DNA of 64,000 bases from Terriglobales bacterium. GTDB taxonomy: Bacteria > Acidobacteriota > Terriglobia > Terriglobales > Acidobacteriaceae. Made by a program: the position numbers and the translations under genes. Within the stretch, counting starts at the first letter, position 1. Each line of letters starts with the position of its first letter. The DNA lies in the NCBI GenBank assembly GCA_035764005.1, contig DASTZZ010000052.1:1-64000 (forward strand). The letters run 5' to 3'. Shown here piece after piece: positions 7,411 to 51,889 of the stretch. The notes under the pieces were generated by a model. That model was not told the DNA's origin. It worked only from the letters and a program-made list of their open reading frames with translations, and ran no database searches.

Positions 7411-7612
7411 TGATCATCCTGAGACCTCATTTTTGCCGAAGGACCTTATGGTTGGCGTTGCTCCTGCGGTTGTGTTGGTTTTGGGAAGACAACACCAACG
7501 GCAACCGCAAACGCAGGGTCCTTCGCCGGCGTCGCTTCGCTCCTTGGCTCAGGATGACAAAGGTTGGTAAATAACAGGTTTGTCATGCTGAGGCGAATGC
7601 CGAAGCACCCTG
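7411..7612. repeat. GIY-YIG-type repeat cluster without a nuclease gene
   Basis: One complete gene-less unit and one half unit of the repeat described at 49383-50312. A degenerate left repeat (about 7411-7452, with CATCCTGAG and GCCGAAGGACCTTATGG) is followed by GTTG-rich then CAAC-rich DNA that can pair, and a right repeat at about 7514-7562 (GGTCCTTCGCCGGCG ... CTCAGGATGACAAAGG). After a 16-base A/T-rich linker comes a second left repeat, 7579-7612 (TTTGTCATGCTGAGG ... GCCGAAGCACCC). Any short reading frame here, such as one ending SPASLRSLAQDDK, is simply the repeat being translated. Confidence 0.8.
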
Positions 7613-48650: not shown

Positions 48651-49382
48651 CTCATTCGTTCTCCTAAACATCAGAGGTACACGCGCTGGCTCCATGCCGA
48701 TGCTGAAACCAAAGGAGCGAAACCTGAGCGCGTCGTGATCTCCTTCGGGCCGGCGTACAGCCTGCTCGAACAACGTCAGGTGGAGCTTGCGTGGGAAGAG
48801 GCGCGTACGCTGATTCCCAAACCGGCAATCATCGTCTTTGCCGCCTTCGAGTTCGATCCTGAAGCCGCCAAGGACATCGACGAGCTGACGAAAGAAAAAA
48901 CCGGCATGACTTTCCTTACGGCGCAGATGAATGCCGACCTGCTCACCGAAGACCTCAAGAAGAAGCGCGCCAGCAATCAGGGCTTCTGGTTCGTCGGACG
49001 TCCCGATGTGGAACTGCGACCGATCAACAGCGGCGAGCAAAAAGGCAAATGGGAAGTGGAAGTACACGGCTTCGACTACTACAACACGCGCACTGGCACG
49101 ATCGATTCCGGCGACACTTCGAAGATTGCCATGTGGCTGCTCGACACCGATTACGACGGGCGCAGCCTCTATCCTCGGCAGGTGTTCTTTCCCATGGCAG
49201 CAGACGACGAGGGCTGGGCTAAGTTGGCGCGGAACTTAAAGGCTGAAATCGATCCCGAGCTGATCGAGCAATATCGCAAGACCGTGTCGTTGCCGTTCGA
49301 AGCTGGAGATTACAAGCGCATTGCGGTGAAGGTGATCGACGATCGCGGCATTGAGAGTTTGAAGGTGGTGGAAATTAAATAA
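48651..49382 (+). pseudogene. C-terminal remnant of an adenine-specific DNA methyltransferase
   Basis: The frame opens after a stop at 48648-48650 and homology begins near 48675 (RYTRWLHADAETKGAKPE); a GTG at 48735 could serve as start but no ribosome site is seen. The 215-240 residues match, as I recall the family, the C-terminal part of large methyltransferases paired with a DEAD-box type III-like restriction subunit: VVISFGPAYSLLEQRQVELAW, FAAFEFDPEAAKDIDEL, TAQMNADLLTEDLKKKR and AMWLLDTDYDGRSLYPRQVFF. The catalytic N-terminal part, including the DPPY and FxGxG motifs, is missing, so it cannot methylate. The matching restriction gene (50340-51889) is also broken. Confidence 0.75.
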
Positions 49383-49498
49383 CCGTGCTGAGGTGTTGTT
49401 GGTTTTGCAGGAGCAAGAGCAAAAGCAAAACCAACGTCAAAAGCAAACACAAGGTCCTTCGCCGGCGTCGCTTCGCTCCTTGGCTCAGGATGACAAAG
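49383..49498. repeat. GIY-YIG-type repeat unit 1 (no gene)
   Basis: Starts right after the methyltransferase stop with a truncated left repeat (TGCTGAGG, 49386-49393), continues with GTTGTTGGTTTTGC and the pairing GCAAAAGCAAAACCAAC, and ends in a full right repeat, 49449-49498 (ACAAGGTCCTTCGCCGGCG ... GGCTCAGGATGACAAAG). The result is one long hairpin with imperfect arms. Confidence 0.75.
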
Positions 49499-49533
49499 CG
49501 TGAGTTAAATAAAAAGGCGTGAACTAAATAAAA

Positions 49534-50095
49534 CTTTGTCATGCTGAGGCGAATGCCGAAGCACCTTGTGGTTGCAGTTGCAGTTGCGGTTGCGGTTGCA
49601 GTTGTGGTTGCAGTTGTGGTCGCTGTTGCCGTTGGGCTTGGTTTTGGTTTTTATGCGCGACTATCGCTTTTTCGTTTACATGCTGAACAGCAGTTCTCGT
49701 CGAGCGCTTTACACCGGCATGACGAACTGCGTGATTGATCGCGTGAATGAGCATCGGTCGCGGGAGGACAAGCGCAGCTTTACTGCGCAGTATCGCGCTT
49801 TTCGACTCGTATATTACGAGGAGTTCGCCGATGTCCATCTCTGCATTCGCCGGGAGAAGGAGATCAAGGGATGGACGCGGGCGAAGAAGAATGCTTTGGT
49901 AGAGACGATTAATCCGAAATGGCGCGATCTGATGGCGGAGTGGGAAGAGAAATACGGGCTCGACTTTGTTGTGCCGATTCCGCCGTATGAGGGCAGAGCG
50001 AGGCAACAACAAAACCAAAGGCAAATGCAACCGCAAAAGCAAACACAAGGTCCTTCGCCGGCGTCGCTTCGCTCCTTGGCTCAGGATGACAAAGC
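49534..50095 (+). mobile_element. Repeat unit 2: GIY-YIG nuclease gene inside long inverted repeats
   Basis: Left repeat 49534-49569 (CTTTGTCATGCTGAGG, then GAATGCCGAAGCACCTTGTG) plus a GTTGC-rich tract (to about 49645); right repeat 50046-50095 plus a preceding CAAC-rich tract (from about 50003) are imperfect reverse complements of each other, about 85-110 bases per side. The nuclease gene fills the centre. A/T-rich linkers built from CGTGAACTAAATAAA words separate it from unit 1 (49499-49533) and unit 3 (50096-50173). The whole cluster sits between the methyltransferase and restriction gene remnants, 28 bases before the restriction gene's start. Mobility is inferred from structure only. Confidence 0.65.
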
Positions 50096-50099
50096 GTGA
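49653..50099 (+). CDS. Small GIY-YIG domain nuclease
   Basis: 148 residues from ATG 49653; an upstream in-frame opening to 49566 only translates the GTTGC repeat tract. The GIY-YIG fold covers residues 4-100: the two tyrosines in FFVYMLNSS and ALYTGMTN, the arginine in VIDRVNEHRS, the metal-binding glutamate in CIRREKEIKGWTRAKK, and the closing asparagine in TINPKWRDLMAEW. All key residues appear present. Length and motif match the stand-alone GIY-YIG proteins (UhpT-unrelated, endo/excinuclease-type) that occur in many copies in some bacteria. The tail from about residue 115 is encoded by the CAAC tract and right repeat and is probably not structured. No DNA-binding add-on domain is seen. It cuts DNA by family knowledge; its target is unknown. 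Confidence 0.85.
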   Translation: MRDYRFFVYMLNSSSRRALYTGMTNCVIDRVNEHRSREDKRSFTAQYRAFRLVYYEEFADVHLCIRREKEIKGWTRAKKNALVETINPKWRDLMAEWEEKYGLDFVVPIPPYEGRARQQQNQRQMQPQKQTQGPSPASLRSLAQDDKA

Positions 50100-50173
50100 G
50101 TTAAATAAAACAAAGTGTGTGTAGTTAAATAAAAAAACGTGAACTAAATAAGTAGACGTGAACTAAATAAAAC

Positions 50174-50312
50174 TTTGTCATGCTGAGGCGAATGCCGAAG
50201 CACCTTGCGGTTGGGGTTGCGGTTGTTTTTTGCAAAAGCAAAAGCAACGGCAAAAGCAAACACAAGGTCCTTCGCCGGCGTCGCTTCGCTCCTTGGCTCA
50301 GGATGACAAAGT
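50174..50312. repeat. GIY-YIG-type repeat unit 3 (no gene)
   Basis: Left repeat 50174-50208, then GGTTGGGGTTGCGGTTG pairing with CAACGGCAAAAGCAAAC, then right repeat 50263-50312. The unit is a 139-base near-palindrome that looks like unit 2 with the nuclease gene removed. The linker before it (50096-50173) carries four CGTGA(A/G)(C/T)TAAATAA-type words. Confidence 0.8.
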
Positions 50313-50339
50313 TGTTTGAGAATTAAGGCTCATCAGCGG

Positions 50340-51889
50340 ATGACTACGGCCACGTCAGCAGCAAGTGCGACGATCGATCAGCTCATCATTACTTCTCCGT
50401 ACGAGGAGCCGACCGAGCATTGGAAATACGATCGCGAGACGCGCAGGTTTACGCGCGAGCCGGGGCGCCGTCCCGCTGGTTATGTACGTGCTTCGGAAGC
50501 GTCGAAGTCCTTTGACGATCCCGGCGAATTCATCGAGCTGCCGCTCGTCAACCAAATTGGTCCACGCGTGAAAGCGTGGCGCGAGGCCGACTATCCCGGC
50601 GCGACCGGCATTACAAAGCGCTTACTGAAGCACTGGCGCGATCGCGAGCAGCGCGAGAGCTTCCGTCGATTCTTCTTTTGTCAGCTTGAGGCGATCGAAA
50701 CGCTCATGTGGCTCGCCGAATCGCCTGAGTCCGAGCGCGTTGGCATCAAGATTCCCGGCGACGGTGGGCCATTTACTCGCCTCTGCGCCAAGATGGCAAC
50801 CGGATCAGGAAAAACCATCCTGATGTCGATGCTGATCGCCTGGCAGGTGCTGAAAAGGTCACCTATCCGCAGGACAAGCGCTTCTCGAAAAACATTCTCG
50901 TGATTGCGCCCGGCCTGACGGTGAGGAATCGGTTGGAAGTGCTCGTCCCCGGCAGCTCCGGAAATTACTATGCTGAATTCCAAATCGTACCTCCGGGTCT
51001 CGAAGACAAGCTGCGGCAAGGGCAAAGCTGCCGCGTGCTTGTTCGTAATTGGCACAAGCTGGATTGGGAGAGCGACGAACAAATAGCCAAACGTCGTAGC
51101 GTCGATAAGCGCGGGGCTCTCAGCGACGAGGCTTACGTTCGCGAAGTTCTAGGGGAGATGGCGACTGCGGAGAACATTCTCGTCATCAATGATGAAGCGC
51201 ATCACGCCTGGCGTGTACCACCAAAAGTGAAGATCGCGGGCATTTCGAAGGATGAGTTAAAAGAAGCCACGAAGTGGGTTGGTGGACTCGATCGCATCCA
51301 CAGCGCTCGAGGCATTCTCATGTGCTACGACATGACCGCGACCCCTTTCGCTCCTACGGGTCGCAAGAGCGGAGAAGAAACGCTGTTCGGCTGGATCGTG
51401 AGCGACTTCGGTCTCAATGATGCCATCGAGTCTGGTTTGGTGAAGACGCCGCGCGTCGTCGTGCCCATCCGATCCACGAGCGACATGCTGCCCTGGTATA
51501 CCGGCAAAGCCTGCGAACACACCAAACGCTCACACATAAACATGTGCGTTTACGACAGCCGTTGGGAGGCCAACGAAGCGATCGAACTCGATCGCAACAA
51601 CAACGTGCGCGCGTGGGTGAAGAACGACCATCTCAACTTTGAGATCACCTATTCATTTAAAGGTGTGATTCACAAATTCAGACCGGATTATCTGGTGAAG
51701 CTCACCAATGGGAAAATGCTGATTCTTGAAGTGAAGGGACAAGACGATCAGCAACAACAAACGAAACGGCAATTTCTTGCGGAGTGGGTGACCGCCGTGA
51801 ACACACACGGCGGTTTCGGAATGTGGGCGGCGGATGTCTCACGACACCCCAAGGATGTGCTGGAGATCCTCCAGCGGCAGAATGCATAA
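50340..51889 (+). pseudogene. Type III-like restriction helicase-nuclease, frameshifted and internally deleted
   Basis: Preferred start ATG 50340. Residues to about 171 run in one frame and include Walker A (KMATGSGKTILMSMLIAWQVL). Near 50852-50856 the frame changes, consistent with loss of one base (CTGAAAAGG where CTG-AAC-AAG-G is expected), and the other frame continues VTYPQDKRFSKNILVIAPGLTVRNRL through the DExH box (LVINDEAHHAW) and motif III (DMTATPFAP) to 51889. A second defect is at about 51469: VKTPRVVV runs straight into PIRSTSDMLPWYTGK, which belongs to the far C-terminal part, so the second helicase domain (several hundred residues) is gone. The end keeps a PD-(D/E)xK-like site (FRPDYLVKLTNGKMLILEVKGQD). 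Not functional. Confidence 0.8.

Follow-up and report, generated by a model that had tools for sequence, protein, structure and literature searches.

A GIY-YIG nuclease gene between CGTC-type REP repeats in a Terriglobales bacterium and other bacteria: a probable REPtron-like element

Described REP systems and the repeats of this study

CGTC-tagged REPs were described by Di Nocera et al. (2013, PMC3733652), who state that they "apparently lack a dedicated transposase". These repeats reach high copy numbers and are most common in Alphaproteobacteria, with members in further phyla; the family includes Neisseria dRS3 and Rickettsia RPE-4/6, and the manner of their spread was left open in 2013. 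In the REPIN/RAYT (TnpA-REP) REPtrons, tagged hairpins in opposite orientation occur in many gene-less and few gene-bearing copies (PMC8266576). Their enzyme is an HuH Y1 transposase and their tag is GTAG. TIRYTs and TIRtrons, which PMC3733652 reports for Acidobacteria, the same host group as here, combine Y1 transposases with unrelated TIRs, the gene likewise being placed between inverted repeats.

The window, a stretch of 64,000 nucleotides from a Terriglobales bacterium, contains a repeat array in which a small GIY-YIG nuclease gene is enclosed by arms that resemble the first of these families. Both have a YGTC tag (CGTC, in many repeats TGTC) at one end and copies that lie mainly in pairs of opposite orientation, for which the outward-tag pairs seen here may correspond to the published 'HH' arrangement. 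The described family also has a stem that starts with AT and a short unpaired tail, mostly CCA, features that the arms of this genome may share in part. Because the arms carry the tag and occur in many copies, mainly as opposite-orientation dimers (among the first 100 of 328 matches listed), the repeats appear to be best classed as CGTC REPs. They differ from the published description of these in having a GIY-YIG gene inside the pair, and the acidobacterial arms often have longer and irregular stems, with tails like CTG instead of CCA; the tail is of CCA type in Proteobacteria and often CTG or CCC at related loci of the Acidobacteria type. The system is not RAYT/REPIN, although built alike, since enzyme and tag both differ: the tag at the nuclease units is TGTC instead of GTAG, and within the unit no HuH Y1 transposase was found, the sole gene seen being the GIY-YIG gene. 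The target-site duplications of a classical IS or MITE with a DDE transposase were not seen either, direct repeats of at least 4 nt abutting the tags being found in 0 of 61 gene-less units (shuffled mean 0.4).

Among the titles and abstract openings listed from open-access literature, none connected GIY-YIG with REPs or REPINs. The one paper listed on both GIY-YIG and RAYT, PMC9465073, gives the two genes as clade-specific and no more, the text of PMC5896051 and PMC6006769 contains no word starting with 'giy', and a search of open-access papers for the repeat letters returned unrelated titles only. Compared with the first-pass annotation of this DNA, the new elements are the CGTC-REP-like arms, the range over many phyla, and the prospect that the gap stated in 2013 may be filled.

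The array and its nuclease

The array (Table 1) consists of a gene-bearing unit and two gene-less relatives. It had been annotated as three tandem units, the outer two without a gene; this stands for units 2 and 3, which are complete, and neither outer unit has a gene, but unit 1 is truncated on the left, where only a 9-nt arm remnant lacking the tag is left. The array is confirmed as genuine and above chance. When up to two mismatches are allowed, TTTGTCATNCTGAG is matched 12 times in the window, whereas 100 shuffles gave 1.4 matches on average and never more than 5; seven of the 12 are exact, every exact one lying in copies of this repeat family, and a repeat search of the window recovered direct repeats of 108 nt and 97 nt in addition to the inverted arms. 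The CAAC tract of unit 2 is partially complementary to its GTTG tract (72-76%).

Table 1. Positions of the repeat units, their parts and the nuclease gene in the window
Feature	Position	Strand	Content or evidence
Another place with the repeat family: a gene-less unit's right-arm end, followed by the left-arm start of a further truncated unit	7548..7592	.	
Whole array	49383-50312		units 1 to 3
Unit 1, truncated, gene-less	49383..49497	.	short GTTG/CAAC tracts; sequence, direct repeats, motif match 49484-49497
Unit 1 left arm remnant, 9 nt, GTGCTGAGG	49385-49393		
Unit 1 right arm, intact	49450-49497		
Two CGTGARYTAAATAA motif copies linking units 1 and 2	49498..49534	+	
Unit 2, gene-bearing	49535-50093		two arms, two tracts, GIY-YIG gene
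Unit 2 left arm, TGTC tag and hairpin, outer end of the element	49535..49568	+	motif match; 34-nt fold, z -1.8
GTTG-rich tract, subterminal, unit 2	49566..49646	+	direct-repeat family D2
Gene of the GIY-YIG nuclease (148 aa, from ATG to stop)	49653..50099	+	translation, PF01541, catalytic residues, fold
CAAC-rich tract, unit 2, inside the ORF	50003..50045	+	inverted repeats I1-I3
Unit 2 right arm, TGTC tag and possible hairpin	50046..50093	-	motif match 50080-50093; alone no better than shuffles
Tandem CGTGARYTAAATAA-like motifs linking units 2 and 3	50094..50173	+	
Unit 3, complete, gene-less, 137 bp, with left and right arms around a GTTG and a CAAC tract	50174..50310	.	motif matches, fold

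Each arm can be read as a TGTC tag with its own possible hairpin. When the arms are folded separately, the left one gains modestly over shuffles and the longer right arm does not (z 0.36), and in both the predicted stem begins one base after AT; three canonical arms of other genomes, with the stem starting from AT, give z -2.8 to -4.4. Unit 3 folded whole as a single strand (50171-50313) is far more stable than its shuffles at z -5.5. A sister genome (G110) has three elements of the window type, 511-516 bp long, each enclosing GTTG/CAAC tracts between two outward tags; part of a second tag lies immediately outside one of them, and for another there is a further mark 1.27 kb downstream. These three elements are without linkers, which argues that the element extends from outward tag to outward tag. 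One copy of the CGTGARYTAAATAA-like linker motif also adjoins a gene-less copy at another locus (L014). To the right of the array, the gene at 50316-51889 reads as two overlapping frames (50316-50903 and 50900-51889) and may be frameshifted; the first of these matches ResIII (PF04851) under the cut-off.

The GIY-YIG gene reported for the middle unit was recovered by profile (PF01541, E 3e-12, 47.1 bits against a cut-off of 22.6). Its ORF can begin at the ATG at 49653 and has a conserved core of about 103 aa (49653-49961), after which it continues across the CAAC tract and the right arm. All 14 members of the protein set A2 match PF01541 at E <= 0.001, and across 28 nuclease sequences Y9, Y20, R30 and N87 are invariant and E68 is conserved in at least 90%; these Tyr, Tyr, Arg, Glu and Asn residues are taken to be those of the GIY-YIG active site. 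The structure predicted from the 28 sequences (pLDDT 90.4) is closest among solved folds to UPF0213 protein BH0048 (1zg2, E 2.3e-4) and next to Slx1 (best E 4.3e-3), a structure-specific nuclease acting on branched DNA; we know of no association of UPF0213 proteins or Slx1 with repeats. The conserved active site and the modelled fold would fit an enzyme that cuts a hairpin or cruciform.

Copies, flanking tags and empty sites

The source genome (5.1 Mb in 131 contigs) has four nuclease loci by profile search (five matches, two being overlapping pieces at the locus C38), and the family-wide search gave six matches in it. A further truncated copy adjoins the C38 gene. Two of the four, C19 and C38, appear frameshifted. 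All four are flanked by outward TGTCAT arms, 472-559 bp from tag to tag, and they represent three repeat types: TGTCATGCTGAGG with CCTTG in the window, TGTCATTCCGA with GGAATCCCTAC at C70 and C38, and TGTCATCCTGA with GGATCTCCCG at C19. The motif TGTCATNCYGA occurs 328 times in this genome (172+156) against five for the reversed pattern. Among the first 100 of the 328 matches listed, 38 outward pairs account for 76, and 34 of these pairs span 74-192 bp; three further pairs are inward and one has both copies in the same orientation. Gene-less units do outnumber gene-bearing ones, as the first-pass annotation had wished to see checked, with at least 38 outward pairs (again among the first 100 of 328 matches listed) against four nuclease loci.

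When 16 gene-less units near motif matches were compared with the four gene-bearing elements, subterminal DNA like that of the C70 element was found in five (scores 23-32, shuffled 99th percentile 19) and like that of C19 in four (30-35 against 19), in each case in units of the same repeat type as the element. The window element matches its own unit 3 only (57), other gene-less units scoring at most 17 against 18, and the match of C38 is weak (24 against 21). Subterminal sharing with gene-less units is thus clear for two of the four, C70 and C19.

The association between gene and tag is near certain. Among hand-picked stretches taken from the best-scoring places listed, hence not a random sample (80 and 40 for the nuclease), outward TGTCAT flanked both sides at 65 of 80 nuclease loci of the order and at least one side at 76, so that one or both tags were missing at 15 loci, and both at 4; in the second batch, where 37 of 40 were used (one at a contig edge, one with two genes and one with a gene already used left out), the counts were 24/37 and 35/37. 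Shifted control positions gave 2/470 and 66/470. Flanking inverted repeats with a score of at least 40 were found at 54/80 loci and at 0/470 shifted positions of the same stretches. Nuclease copies thus usually have flanking repeats; a usual lack of them would have spoken against the earlier proposal. The plain TGTCAT test was used after a first motif-based hairpin detector was rejected as too loose (both sides at 55/84 loci and also at 53/470 controls).

The same arrangement recurs in other bacteria. A GIY-YIG match was present in 32 records of a plasmid collection, of which 15 were read, and canonical CGTC REPs surround the nuclease gene in eight: Azospirillum lipoferum, S. meliloti Ak57, N. 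gonorrhoeae, two Shinella, Rhizobium CIAT894, Neorhizobium and Aeromonas caviae. For N. gonorrhoeae, PMC3733652 equates CGTC-1 with dRS3. TGTCAT arms are present at the Planktothrix and Spirosoma loci and variant hairpins at those of Novosphingobium, Sphingobium and Sinorhizobium K101; repeats lie on one side only in Photobacterium, and none were seen when looked for at the R. tumorigenes locus. The units are situated between sufB and sufC in A. lipoferum (L146), between an MmeI-type enzyme and drmA in Planktothrix (L151), and between glycoside hydrolase genes in Spirosoma (L152). Two plasmid-labelled records, CP090106.1 (3.7 Mb; gltA, lpxA) and NZ_CP119140.1 (2.2 Mb), are probably mislabelled chromosomes.

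A genome-collection scan covered many phyla through the best 80 of 581 nuclease loci, which are not a random sample. With five loci left out for short flanks, inverted repeats of score at least 40 were found at 49/75 of these against 1/378 shifted positions, and several arms read CGTCATTCCCGCGAAGGCGGGAATCCAG or near it. In 30 genomes of this set YGTCATYCCSG has 2 to 377 copies, the reversed pattern 0-26. The flank signal was weaker in the phylum of a Flavobacteriaceae genome, with 7/27 loci (27 of 30 being usable) against 1/106 shifted positions.

Empty sites in relatives, which the first-pass annotation had proposed to look for, were found: whole units are missing at orthologous sites in G110, Azospirillum and Sphingobium. 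G110 lacks the array, about 955 bp, and its flanking genes, 81-83% identical to those of the window, overlap as TAATG (left stop and right start); wider synteny with G110 is limited to 48680-51882 and yields this one empty site. Between sufB and sufC, A. lipoferum 4B has a unit, whereas the two genes are separated by only about 90 bp, free of any REP, in A. oryzae and A. ramasamyi; in strain B510 another short palindrome occupies this place. The Sphingobium unit is present in TomTYG46 and missing in TomTYG72, while TomTYG74 retains a short REP-like hairpin. At one Sinorhizobium site, S. meliloti Ak57 carries a tandem pair of units, one of them with the remnant of a gene, and K101 has REPs without a gene; in about 100 kb of each, one 50-kb stretch showed three gaps, two with YGTCAT (one being the known nuclease site), and the second stretch gave no match above the thresholds used. 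The Shinella unit is missing from Shinella H4-D48, in a region too diverged for its ends to be placed. At the K101 and TomTYG74 sites the gene may have been lost, or the unit may have entered a REP already there, and the direction of gain or loss can be inferred best for the window and sufB-sufC sites.

These comparisons bear on the strongest of the alternatives, that a homing-endonuclease-like gene copies itself into the REPs that it cuts and the gene-less REPs spread by other means. GIY-YIG enzymes include homing endonucleases, a group I intron endonuclease model gives weak matches in 8 of the 14 members (best E 9.4e-6; the one score given is below its cut-off), and the two sites just named have REP-like sequence in the relative without the gene. 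Free-standing GIY-YIG homing endonucleases also share the catalytic domain and a selfish-looking presence and absence. Unlike them, the gene here lies between multicopy hairpin ends and has gene-less derivatives, and the whole unit is missing at several sites: gene and REPs are absent together at the window site, between sufB and sufC in A. oryzae and A. ramasamyi, and in TomTYG72. Since gene-less units also share DNA beyond the REP with the C70 and C19 elements, this alternative is considered unlikely.

Repeat abundance, nuclease lineage and mode of spread

In the window's family, the median number of TGTCATNCYGAG copies is 48.5 in 162 nuclease genomes against 14 in 73 without one (Mann-Whitney p 6e-11; within-genus permutations 0/5000; Spearman.50). 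Alphaproteobacteria were compared by their repeat excess per Mb, whose median was 12.1 for the 82 of 289 genomes counted as nuclease-bearing at E <= 1e-20 (any match, 114), 7.1 where all matches were weak (32 genomes) and 3.6 where there was no match (175 genomes); the weak-match genomes were grouped with the non-bearers in the main test (strong against rest, p 6e-13) and also compared alone (weak against none, p.011), and the direction was the same in 5/5 genome-size bins (p.00004 to.04). The nuclease profile differs between the two scans, with a cut-off of E 1e-5 for the family, and the tests ignore phylogeny except for genus in the family test.

The repeats are thus not equally common where the nuclease is lacking, but they do persist in some such genomes. 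Twelve repeat-rich genomes have no called nuclease, and since ten of these give no match at E <= 1 (the other two only fragments of 25 to 28 residues), the repeats persist or move without it there. The richest alphaproteobacterial genome without a nuclease has 232 repeat copies, and some nuclease genomes are motif-poor, for example G102 with four nuclease matches and three motif copies. Many YGTC repeats without a nuclease match at E <= 1 were observed in G064, G202, G099, G065, G556 and G455, where they could be either relics of a lost enzyme or the work of another mover. The idea in the first-pass annotation of a GIY-YIG counterpart to RAYT/REPIN is supported: the two are built alike and the tests directed against it were survived, with the qualification that the repeats persist in some genomes that lack the nuclease.

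The first-pass annotation also asked whether repeat and nuclease lineages co-occur. Arms were present on both sides at 92/121 loci, and between genomes arm similarity rises with protein similarity (Mantel r.33, 0/1000). When arms were shuffled within genomes (47 loci, 19 genomes), the similarity of arms to those of the nearest nuclease in another genome, the top neighbour, fell from.509 to.436 (0/1000), and the full-matrix statistic was marginal (67/2000). A smaller first test within genomes, in which 6/55 loci were dropped, was not significant (273/2000); the top-neighbour statistic was added together with 37 more loci. Arms follow the nuclease lineage inside genomes, with one of the two statistics marginal.

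A second alternative is that Y1 (RAYT-type) transposases move the repeats, the GIY-YIG protein being a passenger or repair partner. Of the 235 family genomes, 207 have Y1_Tnp genes, whose number correlates with that of the repeats (rho.38), yet the GIY count is the better predictor (partial.43 against.27). At 19 Y1_Tnp loci, hand-picked like the nuclease stretches, outward TGTCAT was found on both sides in 0/19 and on one side in 2/19, so that the repeats of TIRYTs lack the two-sided tags which most nuclease loci carry, and other inverted repeats of score at least 40 were present in 19/19. PMC3733652 likewise reports no case of CGTC repeats on the flanks of a tyrosine transposase gene, and a role for Y1 enzymes as the movers is judged very unlikely. 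The strong inverted repeats that these 19 Y1_Tnp genes (L284-L303 without the placeholder L288) have of their own are in line with the 2013 account of TIRYTs. The least probable reading, also judged very unlikely, is that a host-beneficial hairpin-resolving nuclease trims extruded REPs and lies near them through selection or recombination hot spots, as its Slx1-related fold (with a UPF0213 protein as the closest solved one) might suggest, since the pairing of paralogues with their own arms, the presence of at least two nuclease matches in 98 of the 162 nuclease genomes, the frameshifted copies and the presence or absence of whole units look selfish.

The reading preferred here is that of a REPtron-like selfish element, its only gene a small GIY-YIG nuclease, which probably moves both itself and, in trans, gene-less pairs; that the nuclease moves the repeats is likely, judging from sequence comparison. 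The ends of the element would be REPs of the CGTC superfamily, with an outward YGTC tag and then a hairpin, AT lying at the start of its stem or adjacent to it. The nuclease would most likely recognise tag and hairpin together, extruded or single-stranded, for example on the lagging strand, and may cut beside the tag, after which host replication and repair could copy or move the unit. Acting in trans, it could do the same for short gene-less hairpin pairs, which would have lost the gene and retained the ends and some subterminal DNA. We lean somewhat towards the broader view that a GIY-YIG nuclease, without any known transposase, moves tagged hairpins both in cis and in trans and is the general mobiliser of CGTC-tagged REPs in Acidobacteria-type genomes, Proteobacteria and Bacteroidota, Neisseria dRS3 included.

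A nuclease that sits inside CGTC REP pairs, is paired with them by lineage and is distinct from RAYTs gives the question of how these repeats spread a concrete and cheap test. If movement by the nuclease proves true, it would be fair to recognise a separate class of elements, and REP-type selfish elements would have arisen at least twice with unrelated enzymes. Many proteins now annotated as "GIY-YIG nuclease family protein" would then gain a function, and a bare nuclease would be seen to be able to spread DNA without transposase chemistry.
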